From positions 1 to 30,800 of the IMG/VR virus record IMGVR_UViG_3300010151_000086: DNA of 30,800 nucleotides; one strand, 5' to 3'. Source of the stretch: a virus. A model generated the notes under the pieces. That model searched no databases and was not told where the DNA came from. It worked only from the letters and a program-made list of their open reading frames with translations. Positions 1-20,198 of the stretch are shown in pieces. A program made the position numbers and the translations under genes. Positions within the stretch are counted from its first letter, which is position 1. Each line of letters starts with the position of its first letter.

Positions 1-1090
1 AGGCCCTGCCCCTTTTCCCTTCCCTTGTGTTTCGCCTTGTCGTGGCGGGAAGGCCCAACGGGAAACCGTTGCCAAGAAACACCGTTCATTGAAATAGCTT
101 TGACAGAATCCACCGACGGCCCCTTTTCGGCCCGTTGCCTAGCATCCCCGTTCGCGGGCGAGTGTAGGGAGATTGACACCCTTTAACGGCAACTTGGTAA
201 TAACGGGAAAGAATCGCCACGGTGGAGGAATAAAGCGCGGATTGTAGCGCGGTTGCCTTGGCTTGGCCTTGGCCGCTCTGTTGATTTGCAAACCTTTCCC
301 GTGTGGGCCGTCACTATTGTGCCGGGAAGCTTCACACGATACCGGGGAAGCCTAGCAAGTTGGCTGTAATTACTTCAAACGCTTGCGCTCTCCGCCATTG
401 GCTTTGCCTTTGTTCACTTGTCACCGATGAAACGAGGCCCGGACGGGTTGCGCGTGGATTGTGTCTTGCGCCGATTGTGATTTGAAATTTTCAGACTGCA
501 AACGGTGGCAGTAGAGCTATGCCTTTGCCCGTCTCAGATTTTTAGCGGCTATTGAAAAGATAGTCAGCATCAGAAAGGTCACGCAAGAATTGTCGGTTCT
601 TTTCAGGATCAGCGATTGAGCGGGATGGGTACTCGAAGTGGGAAAGTTTAGCAGACCCACGATGCTCGCCGTATAAACCAGCATAGGACATAAGTCGGCG
701 GGACACTTGACCAAAGGATGGTTACTTGAGAAGCAGATCAGCTTACGCAAGAACTGTATCGATAGCCTGGCGGGTCGTAAATTTCGCCAAGGGATACAAT
801 ATTGCAAGCAAGTCACTTGTACCCTACCGAGCCAAGGTCACGAAGAGTGAGACGCAACAGGTAGATTGTAGCCTCACCAAATCCAGTCATTCCCAAGTAG
901 ATTTACACGCGAGAATTGTGTCTACTGGGGTAATGTAGGCTGGTGATACCTTACGGGTATTCAAATACGCAACCACGGCCCATGTCAGAGATGGGTTTGT
1001 GGCTTCCCTCACATTGTGCTTGCCTTGACGAGGCGTGAGGGCCTGAATCCGCACAGAGTGGATCACTAAAAGGACAGGAAAGGATAAGCT
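1..1090 (+). ncRNA. Candidate large structured non-coding RNA (5' end outside window)
   Basis: No reading frame here has protein-like composition, a good start context or overlap with neighbours, although the rest of the window is packed with genes. The sequence is rich in perfect local inverted repeats. Two carry stable RNA tetraloops: 57-61/66-70 closing GAAA, and 147-150/155-158 closing TTCG. Others are 495-499/508-512, 547-552/560-565, 585-590/596-601, 638-642/656-660, 667-671/696-700, 768-772/785-789, 896-901/921-926, 945-950/956-961, 973-976/999-1002 enclosing 979-983/991-995, and 1006-1012/1035-1041 enclosing 1022-1025/1031-1034. Possible longer-range pairs are 188-193/252-257 and 1-6/1039-1044. 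Large phage RNAs such as GOLLD and ROOL are known to occupy gene-free stretches of this kind, but I cannot assign this one to a family. Strand is inferred from the downstream genes. It could instead be an unusual replication or packaging region. Confidence 0.6.
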
Positions 1091-1330
1091 ATGTATCATA
1101 TGGATATAAGCCCCCAGAAAGCAGGGGCAATCATGCGAAAGATGAGGCTGGCCAACAGGAGTGAACACCCTAATGGCACAGACCTACGGACGGAAGGGGT
1201 AGAGGTTATGCTCAGTACAGGAGCCAAGCTCTATTACAATGAAGGCAAGGGGTATCACATTAGTGGATACACGCCGAGTGGCAGCGATGTGTCCCCATAC
1301 AGGGGGAGCGAGGAGATGCACAAGCTATGA
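1091..1330 (+). CDS. Hypothetical protein, 79 aa
   Basis: I do not recognise this small basic protein. The ATG at 1091 follows a clear purine-rich ribosome site (AGGAAAGGA, about 1078-1086), and the stop overlaps the next ATG by four bases, the junction style used throughout this phage. It is the first gene after the large non-coding stretch, so it may be cotranscribed with it. The centre (VEVMLSTGAKLYYNEGKGYH) looks like a short beta-rich fold. No signal peptide, membrane segment or metal-binding motif is seen. Confidence 0.7.
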   Translation: MYHMDISPQKAGAIMRKMRLANRSEHPNGTDLRTEGVEVMLSTGAKLYYNEGKGYHISGYTPSGSDVSPYRGSEEMHKL

Positions 1331-1473
1331 ACACCGATAAGAAAACCGAAGAGGAATCGTTCATCCACCCTGTATTGGGCGAAGTGTTTGGGTACAGCAA
1401 CATTGAGGAGTTCGATGAAGCTTGCAAGAAATGGGAGAAAGAGAACGAAAAACATCACCCCTTCAGCCAATGA
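1327..1473 (+). CDS. Small acidic hypothetical protein, 48 aa
   Basis: This short frame starts at an ATGA overlap with the upstream gene and ends in another ATGA overlap with the downstream gene. That coupling is the main reason to call it. The product is hydrophilic and charged (Glu/Lys-rich), with a probable C-terminal helix (EEFDEACKKWEKENEK). No function can be assigned. Confidence 0.6.
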   Translation: MNTDKKTEEESFIHPVLGEVFGYSNIEEFDEACKKWEKENEKHHPFSQ

Positions 1474-1658
1474 AAACAGGAGAATGGTTTGTCACCGTTA
1501 TGGATTCTGTGGGCGGCTGGATGTGGGCAGTCATGCGGCAAGAGGAGGGATACGCAGAGCCATACAGTACGGCTGATCTAAAGAGAGCCACTCGCGAAGA
1601 GGCGGTGTCGGACGCAAAAATTATCGCAAGACAAATGGAGATCAAACATGAGAGTTAA
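1470..1658 (+). CDS. Hypothetical protein, 62 aa
   Basis: The start at 1470 overlaps the preceding stop (ATGA), which favours it over the upstream in-frame ATG at 1422. The N-terminal half (MKTGEWFVTVMDSVGGWMWA) looks like a beta hairpin rich in Trp. The C-terminal half is a charged helix ending beyond the next gene's ATG (11-base overlap). Unknown function; probably one of the small host-takeover proteins typical of phage early regions. Confidence 0.65.
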   Translation: MKTGEWFVTVMDSVGGWMWAVMRQEEGYAEPYSTADLKRATREEAVSDAKIIARQMEIKHES

Positions 1659-2058
1659 ATGCTATTGGAACCTAAACCAAGCCAAGCAGGGGAACTATGT
1701 GTTTTCTGTGCTGGCCGCTGGGAAGGTGATTGGGTACGAGAGTGTCATTGCCTTGGCGAACGCAAGGTTTCATGTGAACCATAAGGCTAGGCTTAAGATC
1801 CTTGGCGGGGGAAAGAAGTCCGTTCATGCTTGGGTGACAGGTGATTGGATGGCGACAGCAGACTCGGAGATTCTCAAGTGTCACGGGTTGAGGGAGGCAA
1901 CGTACAACCCAAGGCGGGACGAGGACTACGTCGATGTGCATACTGGTGAGAAACTTGCGGCTACATCTCCGCTGGTTGTGTTGAAGATCACGAAAGTGCC
2001 GGGATACAAGAGTCCCGATTGGCAGCATCAATACAGGGGTGCTGTGTATTACAAATGA
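1648..2058 (+). CDS. Hypothetical protein, 136 aa
   Basis: Not recognised. The first 60 residues alternate hydrophobic and polar positions, followed by a basic stretch (KARLKILGGGKKSVHAW), so nucleic-acid binding is possible but unproven. It starts inside the end of the preceding gene and its last codons overlap the next ATG (2055). No membrane segment or Cys cluster. The opposite strand has a 214-codon open frame across this gene and the following terminator, which I regard as a shadow. Confidence 0.7.
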   Translation: MRVKCYWNLNQAKQGNYVFSVLAAGKVIGYESVIALANARFHVNHKARLKILGGGKKSVHAWVTGDWMATADSEILKCHGLREATYNPRRDEDYVDVHTGEKLAATSPLVVLKITKVPGYKSPDWQHQYRGAVYYK

Positions 2059-2168
2059 AACGCGAAAAAACAACATGGGTAGAAGAATACGAGTGGCGCA
2101 CGGAGTGGTGCGGTATGGGAAAACGCAGGGTCTATGTGTATGTTGGCATGGTGATGGTGAAAGGATAG
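2055..2168 (+). CDS. Very small basic protein, 37 aa
   Basis: A 37-codon frame starts at an overlap with the preceding stop (AAATGAAA) and ends with TAG just before a structured, terminator-bearing intergenic region. Composition is basic and aromatic (TTWVEEYEWRTEWCGMGKRR), with a hydrophobic Val/Met tail. Coupling to the upstream gene supports it. No function can be assigned, and its size makes the call tentative. Confidence 0.45.
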   Translation: MKREKTTWVEEYEWRTEWCGMGKRRVYVYVGMVMVKG

Positions 2169-2310
2169 AAATGTAAGCTGATCTAAACAAACAAGGACTT
2201 CGACCTTCATAGGGTGCTGCTAGGCTAGACAAAGAGGCAATGCAGCACCCAATTGAGGGCCGCAACAATTCCCCCGGTACATCATGGAGTATGTGCTGGG
2301 GGTTTTTATT
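2169..2310 (+). ncRNA. Structured 3' UTR or small RNA ending in a terminator
   Basis: The gap between two small genes contains three successive inverted repeats and then a terminator. A short stem lies around 2193-2207 (AAGG/CCTT). A perfect 9-bp stem pairs 2212-2220 (GGGTGCTGC) with 2242-2250 over a 21-base loop. A 5-bp stem pairs 2251-2255 (AATTG) with 2266-2270. Such an arrangement suits a stable RNA end or a small regulatory RNA. It does not fold as a tRNA: no TTCRA arm or acceptor stem is visible. Confidence 0.45.
2271..2307 (+). terminator. Strong intrinsic terminator
   Basis: A 12-bp stem (2271-2282 with 2291-2302, two G-T wobbles), starting with five C-G pairs and closing an 8-base loop, is followed directly by five T residues at 2303-2307. 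This is a textbook Rho-independent terminator on the plus strand. It separates the first operon (from the non-coding region to 2168) from the genes starting at 2337. Confidence 0.85.
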
Positions 2311-2336
2311 AACCACTCCAGAAAGAAACGCTAGTT

Positions 2337-2513
2337 ATGCCAGAGAAAGTTAAGAAGAAAGTAAGGACAGATATGCACAAGGATGACATCGAAGTCATAG
2401 AGGAATCCTTTTACGGTCAGCCCAAGTGGATGATCTATGTCAAGGGATTGTTATTCACCTTCTTCAGCCGTGAGGATGACGCATTGTGTTATGTCGAACT
2501 CAACCTCATCTAA
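2337..2513 (+). CDS. Hypothetical protein, 58 aa
   Basis: First gene after the terminator at 2307. The 58-residue product begins with a very basic segment (MPEKVKKKVRTDMHKDD) followed by alternating hydrophobic residues (WMIYVKGLLFTFFSRED), consistent with a small beta structure. The ribosome site is weak (AGAAAGAAA some 12 bases upstream). The stop lies inside the next small frame. Unknown function. Confidence 0.55.
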   Translation: MPEKVKKKVRTDMHKDDIEVIEESFYGQPKWMIYVKGLLFTFFSREDDALCYVELNLI

Positions 2514-2643
2514 AAGGAAGTGCCGGCCAGAGCAAGGGGAGTTGGTGCTGGAGGATGCCAGGGTTCGCCCGGTTCCTGCGACACAGCCCGTTGCAGACTG
2601 GTGGTTTAATCGGATCAGAGTTACCCTAAAAAAGATCAAGTAA
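2491..2643 (+). CDS. Small basic hypothetical protein, 50 aa
   Basis: The frame is open from 2437, but the internal ATG at 2491 gives a shorter overlap (23 bases) with the previous gene and is the likelier start. The product is basic with Pro and Trp (VRPVPATQPVADWWFNRIRV). Its last codons contain the recurrent GTTACCCTAAA motif (2620-2630), so the C-terminus may be partly shaped by a promoter. Unknown function, moderate confidence. Confidence 0.4.
   Translation: MSNSTSSKRKCRPEQGELVLEDARVRPVPATQPVADWWFNRIRVTLKKIK
2620..2630 (+). promoter_or_regulatory. GTTACCCTAAA motif copy 1 (putative phage promoter element)
   Basis: Exact GTTACCCTAAA, starting 27 bases before the ATG at 2647. Together with copy 2 (6360) it forms a larger similar block: 24 of the 30 bases from motif to ATG are identical, ending in TAACATATG in both. 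This suggests a duplicated promoter-leader unit. Confidence 0.5.
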
Positions 2644-2646
2644 CAT

Positions 2647-2781
2647 ATGAAAATGATAACACTAGAGAGATACGAGGAGCTACTTGATGTGGCTCGCAAG
2701 GTTACATGGTGTGCATTCCTATCTGGGTTTGGCATAGGAGCGACAATCGCAGCCCTGATTATCGGGAGGATGTGGCTATGA
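2647..2781 (+). CDS. Small single-pass membrane protein, 44 aa
   Basis: This frame encodes a charged N-terminal helix (about residues 1-17) followed by a hydrophobic segment (FLSGFGIGATIAALIIG, roughly residues 24-40) with a GxGxG-like pattern, then a short end. That is the pattern of a one-span inner-membrane protein. It starts 27 bases downstream of a GTTACCCTAAA motif and its stop overlaps the next ATG (ATGA at 2778). A holin, superinfection-exclusion or other membrane role is possible; nothing in the sequence decides between them. Confidence 0.6.
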   Translation: MKMITLERYEELLDVARKVTWCAFLSGFGIGATIAALIIGRMWL

Positions 2782-3050
2782 TTAAGATGTGCTACCACAT
2801 AGATATAACGCAAGACCCTGCTAAACACGGGGGCTATGTCCCAAGCGTGATCTACTCTGACAAGGCGGGACACTACCCACTAGAAGGCAGTGGTTCTATG
2901 TCACAGCCTTGGATATGGGGGGACACATTGGATAAGGCGCAAGCAATCTGTGCCAAGGCTAATGAGAGACTCGGCCTCACCAAGGAGGAGGCACAAGACA
3001 TAGTGAACAAGTCGATCACCCTATCGATAAGAAAGGATGGATTAAGATGA
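2778..3050 (+). CDS. Hypothetical protein, 90 aa
   Basis: The start at 2778 overlaps the previous stop by ATGA and is preferred over the upstream in-frame ATG at 2706. The N-terminal half looks beta-rich (MCYHIDITQDPAKHGGYVPS), and residues 50-75 form a helix (TLDKAQAICAKANERLGLTK). The stop overlaps the next ATG (3047), implying translational coupling. I recognise no family. Confidence 0.7.
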   Translation: MIKMCYHIDITQDPAKHGGYVPSVIYSDKAGHYPLEGSGSMSQPWIWGDTLDKAQAICAKANERLGLTKEEAQDIVNKSITLSIRKDGLR

Positions 3051-5256: not shown

Positions 5257-5603
5257 AAAATAAAACATCAAAGCATAAGTTAAGCAAAGACCAGAAGAGC
5301 AAGCAGGAACACGCTCGCGTCTGGATAGAGAGCAACATCCTATTGAGGGAGCATGGGTTCACACCTGGCCGCTGCTTCGAGAAGGTATGGAACATGGGCA
5401 AGACTCCCGTGCTGGAGCTGCACCTGTTGGAGGATGATGACATCACCACGGGGTACGGCACGGTGTCGGAGCGTAAAGGTAAGCGCAAGGGCAGCATCAT
5501 CGACATCACAGGGTGGACGGTGAAGCAGTTCTTCGAGGGGTCCACTCACATCGAGGCAACCTACAAGCAGGGGTTGATAGAGATAAGGGGGATCGATGGC
5601 TGA
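5253..5603 (+). CDS. Hypothetical protein, 116 aa, upstream of methyltransferase
   Basis: A basic N-terminus (about residues 1-20) is followed by LREHGFTPGRCFEKVW and a beta strand. That resembles the start of AbrB/SymE-type swapped-hairpin domains (GFxxG then basic-hydrophobic strands). A second similar stretch occurs near the C-terminus (THIEATYKQGLIEIRG). The resemblance is weak and I do not assign a function. The gene overlaps the methyltransferase start by eight bases, so the two are probably translated together, and a DNA-binding or regulatory role is plausible. Confidence 0.65.
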   Translation: MKNKTSKHKLSKDQKSKQEHARVWIESNILLREHGFTPGRCFEKVWNMGKTPVLELHLLEDDDITTGYGTVSERKGKRKGSIIDITGWTVKQFFEGSTHIEATYKQGLIEIRGIDG

Positions 5604-6354
5604 GTTCATCAAGCATGACATAGACCCAAGCAACCGATTCATCCTCTCACTCTGCGACTACTCAGGCAGATGGTCACAACCATACCGGGACGCAGGGTAC
5701 AACGTGATCCAGATAGACCTGAAGCGTGGCAATGATGTGCGCTTACTGGAAAAGTTAGAGTACAGGGTGACTGATGCCGGTGACATCCCTGAGCTAAAGG
5801 TTAACGACCTGTTGACTGATGATGAATACAAGCAGCTCAAGGCAGAGGGTTGCTTCGCTAGGGACAGTAAGCAGACCTACGTTGGAGCCAAGGCCAAGCG
5901 GGACGCAACCATCCACGGTATACTGGCAGCACCACCATGCACAGAGTTCAGCGCAGCGGGGGCCAGGTGGTGGAAGGATAAAGATCCTGCGCTACTAACT
6001 GAAGCCCTTGCTCTGGTGGATGCCTGTCTCCGAGCGGTGATGATCTACCAACCTCAATGGTGGGTGCTTGAGAATCCAGTAGGCAGGGTGCAGCGATGGA
6101 TAGGTAAGAAGGCGTACACATTTCAGCCACATGAATTCGCTGGGTGGTTGCCCGAAGAGGAACAGTACGACGAACAATACACCAAGGAGACATGGTTGTG
6201 GGGACAGTTCGAGGAACCAAAGACAAAGGACTTACCTCCTGTGCAAGGCTCAAAGATGTGGGCTAAGTACGGAGGGAAGAGTGAGAGAACGAAGGAGCTG
6301 CGTAGTCATACGCCGAGAGGGTTCGCCCTGGCTTTCTTCAATGCAAACAAGTGA
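5596..6354 (+). CDS. C5-cytosine-specific DNA methyltransferase, 252 aa
   Basis: The enzyme would transfer a methyl group from S-adenosylmethionine to carbon 5 of cytosine in DNA. Motif I is near residues 17-24 (LSLCDYSG) with the acidic cofactor residue after it (VIQIDL, 37-42). Motif IV is AAPPCTEFS, with the catalytic cysteine at C115. Motif VI is LENPVGR (158-164), with ENP in place of the usual ENV. A late motif (TKETWLWG, about 195-202) matches the conserved K/T-x-LWG region. It is short compared with most bacterial enzymes and seems to lack a large target-recognition domain, as is common for orphan phage methyltransferases. No cognate restriction enzyme is nearby, so protection of phage DNA or epigenetic control is the likely role. 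Confidence 0.8.
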   Translation: MAEFIKHDIDPSNRFILSLCDYSGRWSQPYRDAGYNVIQIDLKRGNDVRLLEKLEYRVTDAGDIPELKVNDLLTDDEYKQLKAEGCFARDSKQTYVGAKAKRDATIHGILAAPPCTEFSAAGARWWKDKDPALLTEALALVDACLRAVMIYQPQWWVLENPVGRVQRWIGKKAYTFQPHEFAGWLPEEEQYDEQYTKETWLWGQFEEPKTKDLPPVQGSKMWAKYGGKSERTKELRSHTPRGFALAFFNANK

Positions 6355-12081: not shown

Positions 12082-12317
12082 AATATGTAGTAGAGATGAT
12101 GATAGGTAACGAGTTCGAGGTTGCCTTCCATTCGTGTGACGGGAGCGGAGGACGTAAGCCGTTACTGTTCGACTCGGTTGAAGAAGCCCAGAAAGAAATA
12201 GATGACTGCAATGAAACGTGCGAGGAGTCAGTCAGGATGGGCGACATGGATACATCATTCCGAGATGACGAGTACAACATAAGGGAAGCAACAGAACAGG
12301 AGATCAATGGTGAATGA
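12078..12317 (+). CDS. Hypothetical acidic protein, 79 aa
   Basis: ATGA overlap at 12078 supports this start over the open frame beginning at 12012. The first half (MKYVVEMMIGNEFEVAFHS) is beta-rich and the second half is very acidic and helical (VEEAQKEIDDCNETCEESV). No motif. Overlaps the XF1762-like gene by eleven bases. Confidence 0.65.
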   Translation: MKYVVEMMIGNEFEVAFHSCDGSGGRKPLLFDSVEEAQKEIDDCNETCEESVRMGDMDTSFRDDEYNIREATEQEINGE

Positions 12318-12882
12318 TATACATTGGCAGCACAACCAGAGCATCGTTGAGAACTTCGACAGGGAAACAAACCAGCGCGACTTACTGTCCGCAACCTTGA
12401 GGGTGATGGCTGATCGGTTCATCTCAACAGTAGGCAAGCTGCACCTCAGAACCATCAACCAAAAGCAAGCGTTCGAGTTGGTTAAGAAATGGCACAGGCA
12501 TCACAAGCCTCCACAAGGATGGAAGTTTGGCGTGGCATTACAGGATGACATAGGTGTACTGGGTGTCACCACCGTAGGTCGGCCTGTCTCACGAAACCTA
12601 GATGACGGGACCACCTTCGAGATCACAAGGCTTGCAATGATGGACAAGGGAATAAAGAACGGTGCATCGATGTTGCTTGGAGCTGCCTGTCGTGCGGCCA
12701 AGGCTACTGGTGCAGAGAGAATCATTAGTTACACCTTGGATGAGGAGGATGGTGTTTCATACAAGGCGGCAGGATTTCATGTTGACCACATAACAAAGGG
12801 TCAGTCATGGGATAGGGACAGTAGAGAGAGAGAAGATAAGCACCCGACCTGTGACAAGAAGCGGTGGGTGAAACAACTATGA
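12307..12882 (+). CDS. XF1762-family (GNAT-like) phage protein, 191 aa
   Basis: LHLRTINQKQAFELVKKWHR, then HHKPPQGWKFGVAL, GVTTVGRPVSR, EITRLAM and a C-terminal K-x-R-W match the pattern of the XF1762 family found in many phages and prophages. The fold is thought to be related to GNAT acyltransferases; the central ASMLLGAACRAAKATGAERI helix and SYTLDEEDGVSYKAAGF would be the acyl-CoA site and following strand. The acceptor substrate is not known. The length agrees with the family plus an N-terminal extension of about 45 residues. It overlaps both neighbours. Confidence 0.65.
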   Translation: MVNDIHWQHNQSIVENFDRETNQRDLLSATLRVMADRFISTVGKLHLRTINQKQAFELVKKWHRHHKPPQGWKFGVALQDDIGVLGVTTVGRPVSRNLDDGTTFEITRLAMMDKGIKNGASMLLGAACRAAKATGAERIISYTLDEEDGVSYKAAGFHVDHITKGQSWDRDSREREDKHPTCDKKRWVKQL

Positions 12883-16047: not shown

Positions 16048-16095
16048 CTACCAGAACCAAACCATGTAGTCCTCATCGGGGTAGTCTTCTGGTAG
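16048..16095. repeat. 9-bp inverted repeat between convergent genes
   Basis: CTACCAGAA (16048-16056) is perfectly complementary to TTCTGGTAG (16087-16095), with a 30-base loop. Its position between convergent genes suggests a bidirectional RNA end, although no T-run follows on either strand. Confidence 0.5.
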
Positions 16096-16122
16096 GATGT
16101 CATGCGTGTTTCCACTCTTCAC
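16048..16122 (-). CDS. Possible 24-aa minus-strand micropeptide
   Basis: A GTG-started frame overlaps the end of the larger minus-strand gene by 23 bases and encodes an acidic aromatic peptide ending DEDYMVWFW. That composition is unlike random sequence and the frame ends exactly at the convergent junction. It could also be a frameshifted continuation of the upstream poly-Glu protein. Low confidence. Confidence 0.25.
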   Translation of the reverse strand: MKSGNTHDILPEDYPDEDYMVWFW

Positions 16123-16363
16123 CTTCGTCATCTTCTTCCTCCTCCTCCTCCTCCTCTTCCTCTTCATCTTCGTAGACATACTCACCTTCAGGCAAATCCT
16201 CTGCCGTTGCTGAACCCCACAGCAATTGGTTAAGGTACATCGCCTTGGCTATCTCAACGGAGCCTACGACCTGTGCGTTGGTGAGATCGAACTCCTTGGT
16301 GGAATAGTCAATAGCATTAACCAGCATCTTGACTAGCGCAGCACATTGATCTCCCTTGTCCAT
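16100..16363 (-). CDS. Minus-strand protein with poly-Glu tail, 87 aa
   Basis: This is the only substantial gene I accept on the minus strand. Residues 1-50 look like a real helical domain (MDKGDQCAALVKMLVNAIDY, EIAKAMYLNQLLWGS). Residues about 62-83 are almost all Glu/Asp, encoded by a GAG/GAA-rich run (16130-16175 on the plus strand). Acidic tails of this type can mimic DNA or bind basic proteins. It is transcribed divergently from the HTH-integrase module, and a variant of the TTACCCT motif lies about 30 bases upstream of its ATG. A gene in this position may act in the lysis-lysogeny decision, but no DNA-binding motif is evident. Confidence 0.55.
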   Translation of the reverse strand: MDKGDQCAALVKMLVNAIDYSTKEFDLTNAQVVGSVEIAKAMYLNQLLWGSATAEDLPEGEYVYEDEEEEEEEEEEEDDEGEEWKHA

Positions 16364-16392
16364 CTCCGTATCATTCCACCCCGCTCTCAGGA

Positions 16393-16404
16393 TTCAAGGG
16401 TAAT
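16393..16404 (-). promoter_or_regulatory. Variant TTACCCT motif facing the minus-strand gene
   Basis: Read on the minus strand, ATTACCCTTGAA shares TTACCCT with the plus-strand motif and starts about 41 bases upstream of the ATG at 16363. It would form a divergent promoter pair with the copy at 16435. Confidence 0.35.
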
Positions 16405-16414
16405 ATAAATTCCT

Positions 16415-16445
16415 TTGACACGGGGAATGTTTCCGTTACCCTAAG
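16415..16445 (+). promoter_or_regulatory. Promoter with -35-like TTGACA and GTTACCCTAAG motif (copy 4)
   Basis: TTGACA at 16415-16420 is 16 bases upstream of TACCCT (16437-16442), which sits inside GTTACCCTAAG (16435-16445). This is the only copy with a good -35 box. If TACCCT acts as a -10 element, transcription would begin at or beside the ATG at 16449, giving a leaderless transcript. Confidence 0.55.
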
Positions 16446-16448
16446 TTT

Positions 16449-16970: not shown

Positions 16971-17196
16971 CCAGATCAGGCTGCTGAACGGCAAGGTTAG
17001 GTCAGCACAGGTCAACATTAACGCCCAAGACAGGGCTATCCTCGCGAGGCAGAAAAGGATTGCAGAGATTAAGCTGAAGGCAGAGAAGATTAGGGAAGGT
17101 ATAATAGAAAGGCAGGAAGAGATAGCACTTAAAAGAAAGCGAAGAGAGTTTAGGCAGAAAGTATTAAAAAATAAGGTAGCAGAAATATGGAACTAA
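16813..17196 (+). CDS. Coiled-coil protein, 127 aa
   Basis: The ATG at 16813 has an excellent ribosome site (GGAGGG at 16801-16806). From residue 10 on, nearly the whole protein is a charged, heptad-like helix (TEEKKEEITEREERKKQLHQ, then RQKRIAEIKLKAEKI), so a long coiled coil is expected. It overlaps the HTH frame upstream and the integrase start downstream. Known roles of such proteins include scaffolding of DNA complexes, but nothing specific is seen. Confidence 0.75.
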   Translation: MLEEQDWEKIRKRVEDNKFVQSHTRKTEEKKEEITEREERKKQLHQDIRDYNDQIRLLNGKVRSAQVNINAQDRAILARQKRIAEIKLKAEKIREGIIERQEEIALKRKRREFRQKVLKNKVAEIWN

Positions 17197-18038
17197 TAAC
17201 CAAAGCACTAGATAAGTATCTGGAATGGGAAGAAGCAACCGGCAATTCAGATAACACGATCAACAATAAATACTACGAAGTCCACAGGTTTATGGATGAC
17301 ATGGGTATAAAGAAGTTGAGCAAGATAACCGAAGTCACCCTTCATAACTGGATAAATAAAGCAGGAGGGGAAACGACAGCATCAACAAGAAAGTTCAAGC
17401 TCTCTTGCCTCAAGATGTTTCTTAACTATTGCTTGGCCAAAGGTTGGGTGAAGGGAAACCCTGCCATTATGGTTAGGGTAGACATCAGGTCGGTAAGACA
17501 CGCCCAACGAGAGACAAAGAAGAAGCTGGCATTCGACAAGGCAGAGTACCGATACCTGTTGAGCAACTTGGATTGGGCTTGTGACACGGGTAGAAATGAT
17601 GGGCCATGCCCTAACTTTTGGAAGGCCGCTATCGTTATAGGTGTAGAAACTGGACTGAGACTTGGTGACATCATTCAACTGGAGTGGGATTGTTTCACCC
17701 CCAGATCAGTCAATGTATGGACAGACAAGAAGGATAAGCGGGTATCCCTGCCGATGAGTATGGAATTGCGCGAGGCTATCAAGTCCATCAAAAAAACCAG
17801 CAAACACTATCTGTTCCCGGTGCAAAGGTCAGAGTTTCTAGGCGGCAACAGGGCAAAGTATTCCATGCAGTTCAATCGACTGCTCAAGAAGTTGGAGTTC
17901 GAGGGCATGAGTTTCCATTGTACTAGGGTGACTTTTGCTACTTGGGCGAAGAAAGCCGGGGGCAACCTAGCCAAGATTGCAGAAGACTTGGGGCATAGCA
18001 CTACAAATACTACCTCCAAGCATTACATAGCTGGATGA
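17187..18038 (+). CDS. int: Tyrosine recombinase (integrase), 283 aa
   Basis: Site-specific recombinase that would cut and rejoin DNA by a phosphotyrosine intermediate, integrating or resolving the phage genome. The N-terminal core-binding domain (about 1-100) is a SAM-like helical fold. The catalytic domain has the complete set: R158 in ETGLRLGDI, the beta-hairpin lysine near K182/K184, H244-x-x-R247 in FHCTR, H270 in LGHSTT and the nucleophile Y280, three residues from the end. At 283 aa it resembles XerC/D-size enzymes and lacks the arm-binding domain of lambda-type integrases. It overlaps both neighbours. No attP core or arm sites could be recognised in the window. Confidence 0.9.
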   Translation: MELITKALDKYLEWEEATGNSDNTINNKYYEVHRFMDDMGIKKLSKITEVTLHNWINKAGGETTASTRKFKLSCLKMFLNYCLAKGWVKGNPAIMVRVDIRSVRHAQRETKKKLAFDKAEYRYLLSNLDWACDTGRNDGPCPNFWKAAIVIGVETGLRLGDIIQLEWDCFTPRSVNVWTDKKDKRVSLPMSMELREAIKSIKKTSKHYLFPVQRSEFLGGNRAKYSMQFNRLLKKLEFEGMSFHCTRVTFATWAKKAGGNLAKIAEDLGHSTTNTTSKHYIAG

Positions 18039-18697
18039 ACCTGACTAACGGCGAACGCAAAGCGATACACCTTGCATTGGAGGAGGCCAACGGTGTGGTG
18101 GATACAGCGGCCAAGCTCGTCGGCGTCAGCCATTACAAGGTTACGAAGTTAATCAAGACTGACCCAGAGTTTAATGCCAGATGGGGCAACGGGGAGGTCA
18201 AGGTTCCCACCTCAACGGATGTGATCCATCGCCCTGATCCCGCTGATAAGTTTGTAGCCAAGCTCAAGGAGGAGGAGGCCGCACTAGGCAGGGGGCTTGA
18301 GGCCGTGGGTATCAAGGGTGAGTGTAAGCAGGAGGCCATAGCCACATCAGCTTTTGCGGCAGCACACCTCGGCCAGATGAGGCAGATGACCACGGGCGGA
18401 TTGCTCAAGGATTTCATGGAGCTAGGTGTGGTGTTCAGGGAAATTAGGGGTGAACTGGCAGAGGGACAGGAGCAGGATAGGGAGCAGACCTTGTATGATG
18501 CCCTGTTTAATACTGTTAAATTAAGGAACGAGATCAACAGGGAGGTCATCAAGGGTGCGCTGATTGATGCACAGATAAAGCAGAAGTCCGAGGAGCAGCA
18601 AGGGAAGAGGCCATCAGGCAAGCCGGGGTTTGCCCCCATGAATAACATTTTGATTAAGACCGATGGTAAGGTCGAGGTCAGCAAGGATGCCAAGTAA
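18035..18697 (+). CDS. Candidate small terminase subunit, 220 aa
   Basis: It directly precedes the large terminase and overlaps it, as small terminases do. The N-terminus (ERKAIHLALEEANGVVDTAA, then KLVGVSHYKVTKLI) is a probable helix-turn-helix for binding packaging sites. The centre is helical and would oligomerise, and the C-terminus is basic. The family is not obvious from sequence, so assignment rests on position, HTH and size. It would recognise the phage DNA and load the large subunit. Confidence 0.6.
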   Translation: MNLTNGERKAIHLALEEANGVVDTAAKLVGVSHYKVTKLIKTDPEFNARWGNGEVKVPTSTDVIHRPDPADKFVAKLKEEEAALGRGLEAVGIKGECKQEAIATSAFAAAHLGQMRQMTTGGLLKDFMELGVVFREIRGELAEGQEQDREQTLYDALFNTVKLRNEINREVIKGALIDAQIKQKSEEQQGKRPSGKPGFAPMNNILIKTDGKVEVSKDAK

Positions 18698-20198
18698 AAC
18701 CAACCTGTCTGAAGAGGAGATTGAGGCCATTGCTTCTGCTGTAATGGATACTGAACCGGCTCCAGCTCGAACAGAGTGGTATCCTGACCTGAACAAAACC
18801 CAAGAGAAAATTTTTAACGACCCGTCAAAGTATGTGTTGGGATACGGTGAGAAAGGTAGCGGTAAGACGATAGGTTTTGCCCACAAGCTGACCCGACACG
18901 CCTACGAAGAGAACAATGCCCTAGTCCTTATCCTTGCCCCTTCAATCCGTACAGGTGCGGAGGGTATCTGGCATGATCTGGACACGCTGGTACTCCCTCA
19001 ATGGGAGGAAGGCATAGGACTAGAGTACACGGTATCCAAGCTCGACCCCAATACCAAGGACAGACACAGGTGGATACGCAATCGGTTCGGGGGCTGGAGC
19101 AAGTTGCTTCTGGTTTCGATTCCCTACGCAGGGGCAGTCGAGACTAGGATCAAAGGCCCAGCCCCCAGCCATTGCTATGTAGATGAGCTTACCCAATGTG
19201 ATGGAGTGGAATACTTCCGTTACCCTGCGGCCCAGTTAGGTAGGCGCAGAGGGATAGAGGGGCCACAACAATACTGTGCCAGTTGTAACCCTGAAGGCCC
19301 AAGCCATTGGGTTTACAAGCAGTTCTTCGAGGATTGCATAGATGACAAGGGTAAGCGCGACAAGAACTTCAAGATTTACCATGTACCCATGCGGGAGAAC
19401 GCCAAGCGGTTGCCTCCCGGCTATGTCCAGAGTCTTGAAGCTATCCTCAAGTCAGACCCAATTGAGTGGCGCAGACTCATTGAGGGTGAATGGGTGGACA
19501 GGCCCACAGGTGAAGCGTTGTTCAAGGAATACTTCTCGCCTGAACTACACAAGAAAGGGGACGAGATAAGCGGTAAGGGACTCATGCCCAAGCCGGGGCA
19601 TCCCATCATCATAGGGTATGACTTGGGCCAGGTGTACTCTGCCGTGACCTTCCTTCAGATGATACCAACCGAGAGGGGAAACCTTTGGATCGCGTTCGAT
19701 GAGGTGGATTATCTAGGTGAACGCCACCTGTACAAGCGGCTGGCCCAGCAGATAATGAAGCGCATGGACTATTGGAACGAGAAGATGGACACCGAGTTCT
19801 ACTATGAACATATCACCGACTCTAGTGCTATCAACCAATGGCATCCCGGCGGTGAAGGAAGCTACGATAGCTGGGACTTTGAGAGATACAGCGATGGGAG
19901 GATCAGGATGGTTGGATGCCCCAAGGGGCAGGGCAGCGTCGAGGCGAGGGTCAGACTGCTATCAGGCAAGCTCTTTCAGGATGAGTTCTATGTGTCGGCA
20001 ATGTGTACCAACTCTGTGGATATGCTAATGAATCTGGAATCTGACAAGAAAGACCCAACCAAGCCCAAGCGGAGCAAGTATATCCACAAGTTTGACTCCA
20101 TTACCTACCCCATGTTCAAGCTGGATTTGAATAATAACTCAAGGTTGCCGAAGGCAGCGGACGCAAGGCCCAGTTTAATTCATTGCGGAATACCTTGA
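18687..20198 (+). CDS. terL: Large terminase subunit (DNA-packaging ATPase/nuclease), 503 aa
   Basis: The motor that pumps phage DNA into the prohead and cuts the concatemer. Walker A is GEKGSGKT at residues 54-61. Walker B is CYVDEL with the Asp/Glu pair near 166-167. The coupling motif fits CASCNPEG (197-204). The RNase H-like nuclease begins with IIIGYDLGQVYSAV (D312). The start at 18687 overlaps the small terminase by eleven bases and avoids an unlikely basic leader from 18663. Length is normal. The C-terminal nuclease acidic residues after D312 are less clear. It is followed by a promoter motif copy. Confidence 0.9.
   Translation: MPSKTNLSEEEIEAIASAVMDTEPAPARTEWYPDLNKTQEKIFNDPSKYVLGYGEKGSGKTIGFAHKLTRHAYEENNALVLILAPSIRTGAEGIWHDLDTLVLPQWEEGIGLEYTVSKLDPNTKDRHRWIRNRFGGWSKLLLVSIPYAGAVETRIKGPAPSHCYVDELTQCDGVEYFRYPAAQLGRRRGIEGPQQYCASCNPEGPSHWVYKQFFEDCIDDKGKRDKNFKIYHVPMRENAKRLPPGYVQSLEAILKSDPIEWRRLIEGEWVDRPTGEALFKEYFSPELHKKGDEISGKGLMPKPGHPIIIGYDLGQVYSAVTFLQMIPTERGNLWIAFDEVDYLGERHLYKRLAQQIMKRMDYWNEKMDTEFYYEHITDSSAINQWHPGGEGSYDSWDFERYSDGRIRMVGCPKGQGSVEARVRLLSGKLFQDEFYVSAMCTNSVDMLMNLESDKKDPTKPKRSKYIHKFDSITYPMFKLDLNNNSRLPKAADARPSLIHCGIP

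Follow-up and report, generated by a model that had tools for sequence, protein, structure and literature searches.

What occupies the first 1,090 bases of this phage contig, which precede the first rightward gene of the early operon? The window that we analysed is the whole IMG/VR contig (30.8 kb), so its position 1 is an arbitrary assembly end, and the 5' end of the stretch is lost there. The source is an uncultivated tailed phage with an integrase gene, and the window also contains terminase and structural genes (Table 1). No phage record matched the window at the DNA level, and its terminase has only distant relatives among deposited phages. An initial annotation, made from the sequence alone, had read positions 1-1090 as a large RNA rich in hairpins rather than as a gene.

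We found that this region does not code for protein. The phased-trinucleotide score had a mean of -0.06 in 1-1090 compared to +0.15 elsewhere, and no frame had a coding signal. The five longest open reading frames had no match in PHROGs or Pfam, in agreement with the earlier statement that there is no credible frame. No other noncoding gap of the contig is as long, and there is a shift in base composition within 1-500. We also searched for relatives of the first gene downstream and found none. Terminator-like sites in 1-3000 were about as frequent as in shuffled sequence (2 found, 2.5 expected). No tRNA gene was found in the window. Two other features of the contig are mentioned here for completeness. 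A gap of ~420 nt in rightward coding (16048-16448), ~2 kb upstream of terminase, has a near-identical length in many relatives; base skew is reversed there, which may point to a short leftward gene (16100-16363) in the gap. A Mom-like DNA modification protein (12307-12882) and a DNA methyltransferase (5596-6354) are possible counter-restriction genes.

Table 1. Features of the window discussed in the text.
Feature	Position	Strand	Basis or remark
Noncoding stretch heading early operon	1..1090	+	Coding score, family searches, gap length
Pyrimidine-rich start	1..27	+	Sequence comparison
Motif copy 1, AGGTCACGCAAGAATTGT	576..593	+	
Motif copy 2, AGCTTACGCAAGAACTGT	740..757	+	
Stem around motif copy 3	896..926	+	
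Motif copy 3, TTTACACGCGAGAATTGT	902..919	+	Opens the element alignable with G6
Hairpin H1	945..961	+	G6 has a hairpin at the same place
TACGCAA anchor	966..972	+	Common to G6
Hairpin H2	973..1002	+	Kept in G6; 7-nt loop, 1-nt U bulge on 3' side
Hairpin H3	1006..1041	+	Longer hairpin after H2 in G6 too
Short hairpin H4	1047..1063	+	Before first gene; read from sequence
Early unit, gene 1	1091..1330	+	79 aa; family: none found
phrog_586 gene	1648..2058	+	Counterpart in G6 at L006 1874-2239
Intrinsic-terminator-like hairpin	2271..2302	+	May close first transcription unit
Integrase	17187-18038		
Terminase	18663-20198		

The hairpins that had been noted are real, but their number does not distinguish the region from chance. 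The stem around motif copy 3 and hairpins H1, H2 and H3 are where the initial annotation placed them, as are a GAAA loop near 57-72 and a TTCG loop near 146-158. Compared to dinucleotide shuffles, the fold energy of 1-1000 had z = -0.51. Tiles of 150 nt on the + strand had a mean z of +0.1 in 1-1090 and -0.3 across the remainder of the window, and the final 206 bases of the noncoding stretch had z = -0.95. With z-scores about 0, we dropped hairpin density as an argument for an RNA. We also set aside low z-scores from two of the relatives described below, G14 and G24, because coding DNA scores low there too and noncoding DNA could not be separated from it. That is, fold z-scores have no discriminating power in this clade. 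A closing helix between the first six bases (AGGCCC) and the 3' end had been proposed as well. GGGCCT does sit at 1039-1044, but the pairing carries no weight: a six-base complement has no meaning in 1 kb of sequence, and its partner is an arbitrary contig end.

The stretch does not belong to a known RNA family as currently modelled. There was no match in the window at Rfam gathering level, no family up to E = 0.5 in the whole window, and only two unrelated chance matches up to E = 5 in 1-2400. Based on these searches it is not a GOLLD, ROOL, OLE, HEARO or group I intron RNA, the families that had been put forward as candidates.

We found relatives by a terminase scan, which gave G6 (48.9 kb), G8 (64.8 kb), G19 (70.7 kb) and G14 (63.5 kb), and by searching for a conserved block (GAAAGTTGAGAAGAG..RTRTATA with C-tracts after it), which added G22, G23 and G24. 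G6 is the nearest (92% terminase identity). In five relatives (six contigs: G8, G19, G14/G22, G24 and G23), noncoding stretches, mostly 0.75-1.2 kb long, head the early operon. In G8, G19 and G24, ~0.75-1.1 kb of noncoding DNA runs from the conserved block to the first rightward gene. In G14 and its near twin G22, 1.2 kb of noncoding DNA comes after a first gene, and in G23 small open reading frames are flanked by noncoding stretches. G8, G19 and the window also resemble one another in the distance to the terminase. All of these are tied to the window by position and not by sequence. The pyrimidine-rich start of the window might possibly correspond to the C-tract found ahead of this stretch in relatives, the likeness being weak.

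G14 and G22 are near-identical over ~440 noncoding nt, compared to ~80% identity in the adjoining first gene (L063 10036-10460 versus L074/L090); recent recombination could also have caused this. Phage records contained no nucleotide match to the G14 or G8 regions, and a terminase scan of cellular genomes yielded only two MAG contigs (4.3 and 10 kb), neither long enough to include the region. G24 has a tRNA gene upstream of its noncoding stretch (L091 646-719). Several contigs of the group terminate inside the noncoding stretch (the end of L084, the start of L006 and the start of the window), perhaps because C-tracts or structure hinder assembly.

Three of the relatives have a predicted ribozyme core of a known class just before the first gene. 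In G19, a twister-P1 (E = 3.2e-8, below the Rfam gathering score) ends ~15 nt before the first ATG. In G8, the predicted ribozyme resembles a type III hammerhead, carries one additional U in its core and stops 22 nt short of the ATG; Rfam did not report it, and our descriptor for it was not matched once in 335 Mb of shuffled sequence. In G23, our own descriptor predicted a hammerhead II ~34 nt before the start codon. The Rfam search of G23 did not list this one, and 3 equal-or-better matches were found in 165 Mb of shuffled sequence (about 0.02 per Mb). The presence of three ribozyme architectures at one place argues that an RNA is made and cut there. In window 1-1090, which lacks the sequence CTGANGA, we recognised no ribozyme core known to Rfam, hammerhead and twister included, and in G6 no known self-cleaving ribozyme. 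Elsewhere in G23, small genes of the early operon are accompanied by a further twister-P1 and type II hammerhead (L089 2893-2960 and 4759-4824), and a DUF3800-VIII RNA is on the - strand (L089 7349-7414).

At the same junction, the window and G6 share an element. Positions 902-1066 resemble G6 1-205 in sequence and structure, including a motif, the TACGCAA anchor and a hairpin. The G6 contig opens with the motif, and its subsequent features come in the order seen in window 902-1090. H2 follows TACGCAA in both phages, and in each it has 10-11 pairs, a 7-nt loop and a U bulge on the 3' side. In a hand alignment of this single pair of sequences, with pairs numbered from the base of H2, 5 of 10 pairs were changed on both sides, 1 had a change on one side only, and 4 were identical. 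Among 34-mers, 0.36% and 0.17% in the two sequences fold as stably as H2. Automatic alignment (MAFFT/RNAalifold) gave z = -1.7, with 10 of 200 shuffles equally good, and misplaced H2, so the comparison of H2 depends on the hand alignment. G6 1-205 itself had z = -4.3, the lowest among 40 tiles of that locus. Likeness in sequence to the window is confined to G6 and to these 205 nt.

The motif that opens the element, ACGC[AG]AGAA[CT]TGT, had been overlooked. It occurs three times in the window, in steps of 164 and 162 nt, and such a triple was found in 0 of 300 shuffles. A 17-mer that includes part of copy 2 (743-759) is identical to G6 bases 1-17. Pattern scans of IMG/VR found the motif in G6 only; other matches fall within or next to unrelated genes and are attributed to chance. 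Apart from G6, no relative was found to share a motif with the window. The window and G14 have the 12-mer GTGGATTGTGTC in common, which we do not count as proof. Recurrence of the motif at ~163-nt steps upstream suggests that structured domains are repeated there.

Based on these results we consider it about an even chance that 1-1090 specifies a long noncoding RNA that forms the 5' part of an early transcript and, in relatives, is cut from the mRNA. The first rightward early transcript would begin with this RNA, if 1-1090 is transcribed in this phage as we suppose. Its 3' ~190 nt (motif, H1, TACGCAA, H2, H3 and H4) would form a structured domain before the first gene. In relatives, the predicted self-cleaving ribozyme would sever the equivalent RNA from the first mRNA; the RNA of the window may likewise be released, or at least cut, and the freed structured RNA might then act in trans early in infection. 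Against this, the stretch folds no better than shuffles, no known ribozyme is recognised in it, and only G6 shares sequence with it. The initial annotation was probably right to prefer an RNA over a gene, though not on the grounds that it gave: the stretches in relatives, the ribozymes and the domain shared with G6 favour an RNA, whereas the density of hairpins and the named families do not.

The cleavage element of the window, if there is one, would be of a kind that our searches do not recognise. The conserved element at the junction is more probably a structured RNA domain than a new cleavage motif. It could be a ribozyme because it occupies the site of three different ribozymes in three relatives. 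By that analogy, the element (902-1066; G6 1-205) might conceivably be an unrecognised class of self-cleaving ribozyme that releases ~1 kb phage RNAs of a new class, which we regard as improbable.

It is also possible, with a probability well short of even, that the region serves the first early genes in cis, as a long 5' untranslated leader that works by antitermination, translation control or effects on mRNA stability. The ribozymes in relatives would then merely trim the 5' end of the mRNA, and the upstream part that is severed would have no function of its own. The start codon is directly downstream, as expected of a leader, a terminator-like hairpin follows the first unit, and Perreault et al. 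proposed that long phage transcripts may be divided into shorter mRNAs by hammerheads (PMC3088659). A leader does not readily explain why a length of 0.75-1.2 kb is kept in several relatives, and cleavage would separate most of it from the gene on which it acts. In addition, the stretch in G14/G22 comes after the first gene and not after the promoter-like block.

Two other explanations do not involve an RNA, and we consider both unlikely. Three evenly spaced copies of a 13-nt motif, located where the early region begins, could be protein-binding sites in a replication origin, packaging site or attachment site, and the conserved block followed by C-tracts in relatives would fit such a role in DNA. 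In contrast, the 160 nt between motif copies is wide for iterons, the integrase gene is 16 kb away, the changes in H2 preserve base pairing, and the ribozymes of three relatives function only as RNA. Slightly less likely still is that the region is non-functional DNA or a decayed gene. Sequence conservation among relatives is indeed weak and composition shifts in 1-500, but the rest of the genome is compact, relatives keep the stretch in place and at similar length, and H2 is conserved. The ~440 nt that G14 and G22 have in common also argue against decay, unless they were recombined.

A long noncoding RNA, proposed to be released from the early mRNA in relatives, can be compared with known systems. 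Large phage RNAs resist functional explanation. The finding of different ribozymes at the same junction makes RNA release by self-cleavage directly testable, and it singles out a short element of the window as a candidate for new cleavage activity. The put sites of phage HK022 are leader RNAs of ~70 nt per site. Like the RNA proposed here, they are structured and open an early transcript; they are much shorter, and we judged similarity to them through Rfam only. GOLLD and ROOL are noncoding RNAs of phages and prophages (PMC12286853). They are similar in being phage-encoded, ~0.6-1 kb long and likewise without an assigned function (PMC12286853). They form multimeric cage structures. They differ in often, not always, being near tRNA islands, whereas the window has no tRNA; the location at the head of the early operon and the ribozymes at the 3' end in relatives are not like GOLLD and ROOL. 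Hammerhead and twister ribozymes occur in phage operons (PMC3088659, PMC6155905), and the self-cleaving motifs directly upstream of genes in G8, G19 and G23 resemble these. None was recognised in the window or G6. In contrast to those ribozymes, the motifs of these relatives close a long noncoding stretch.
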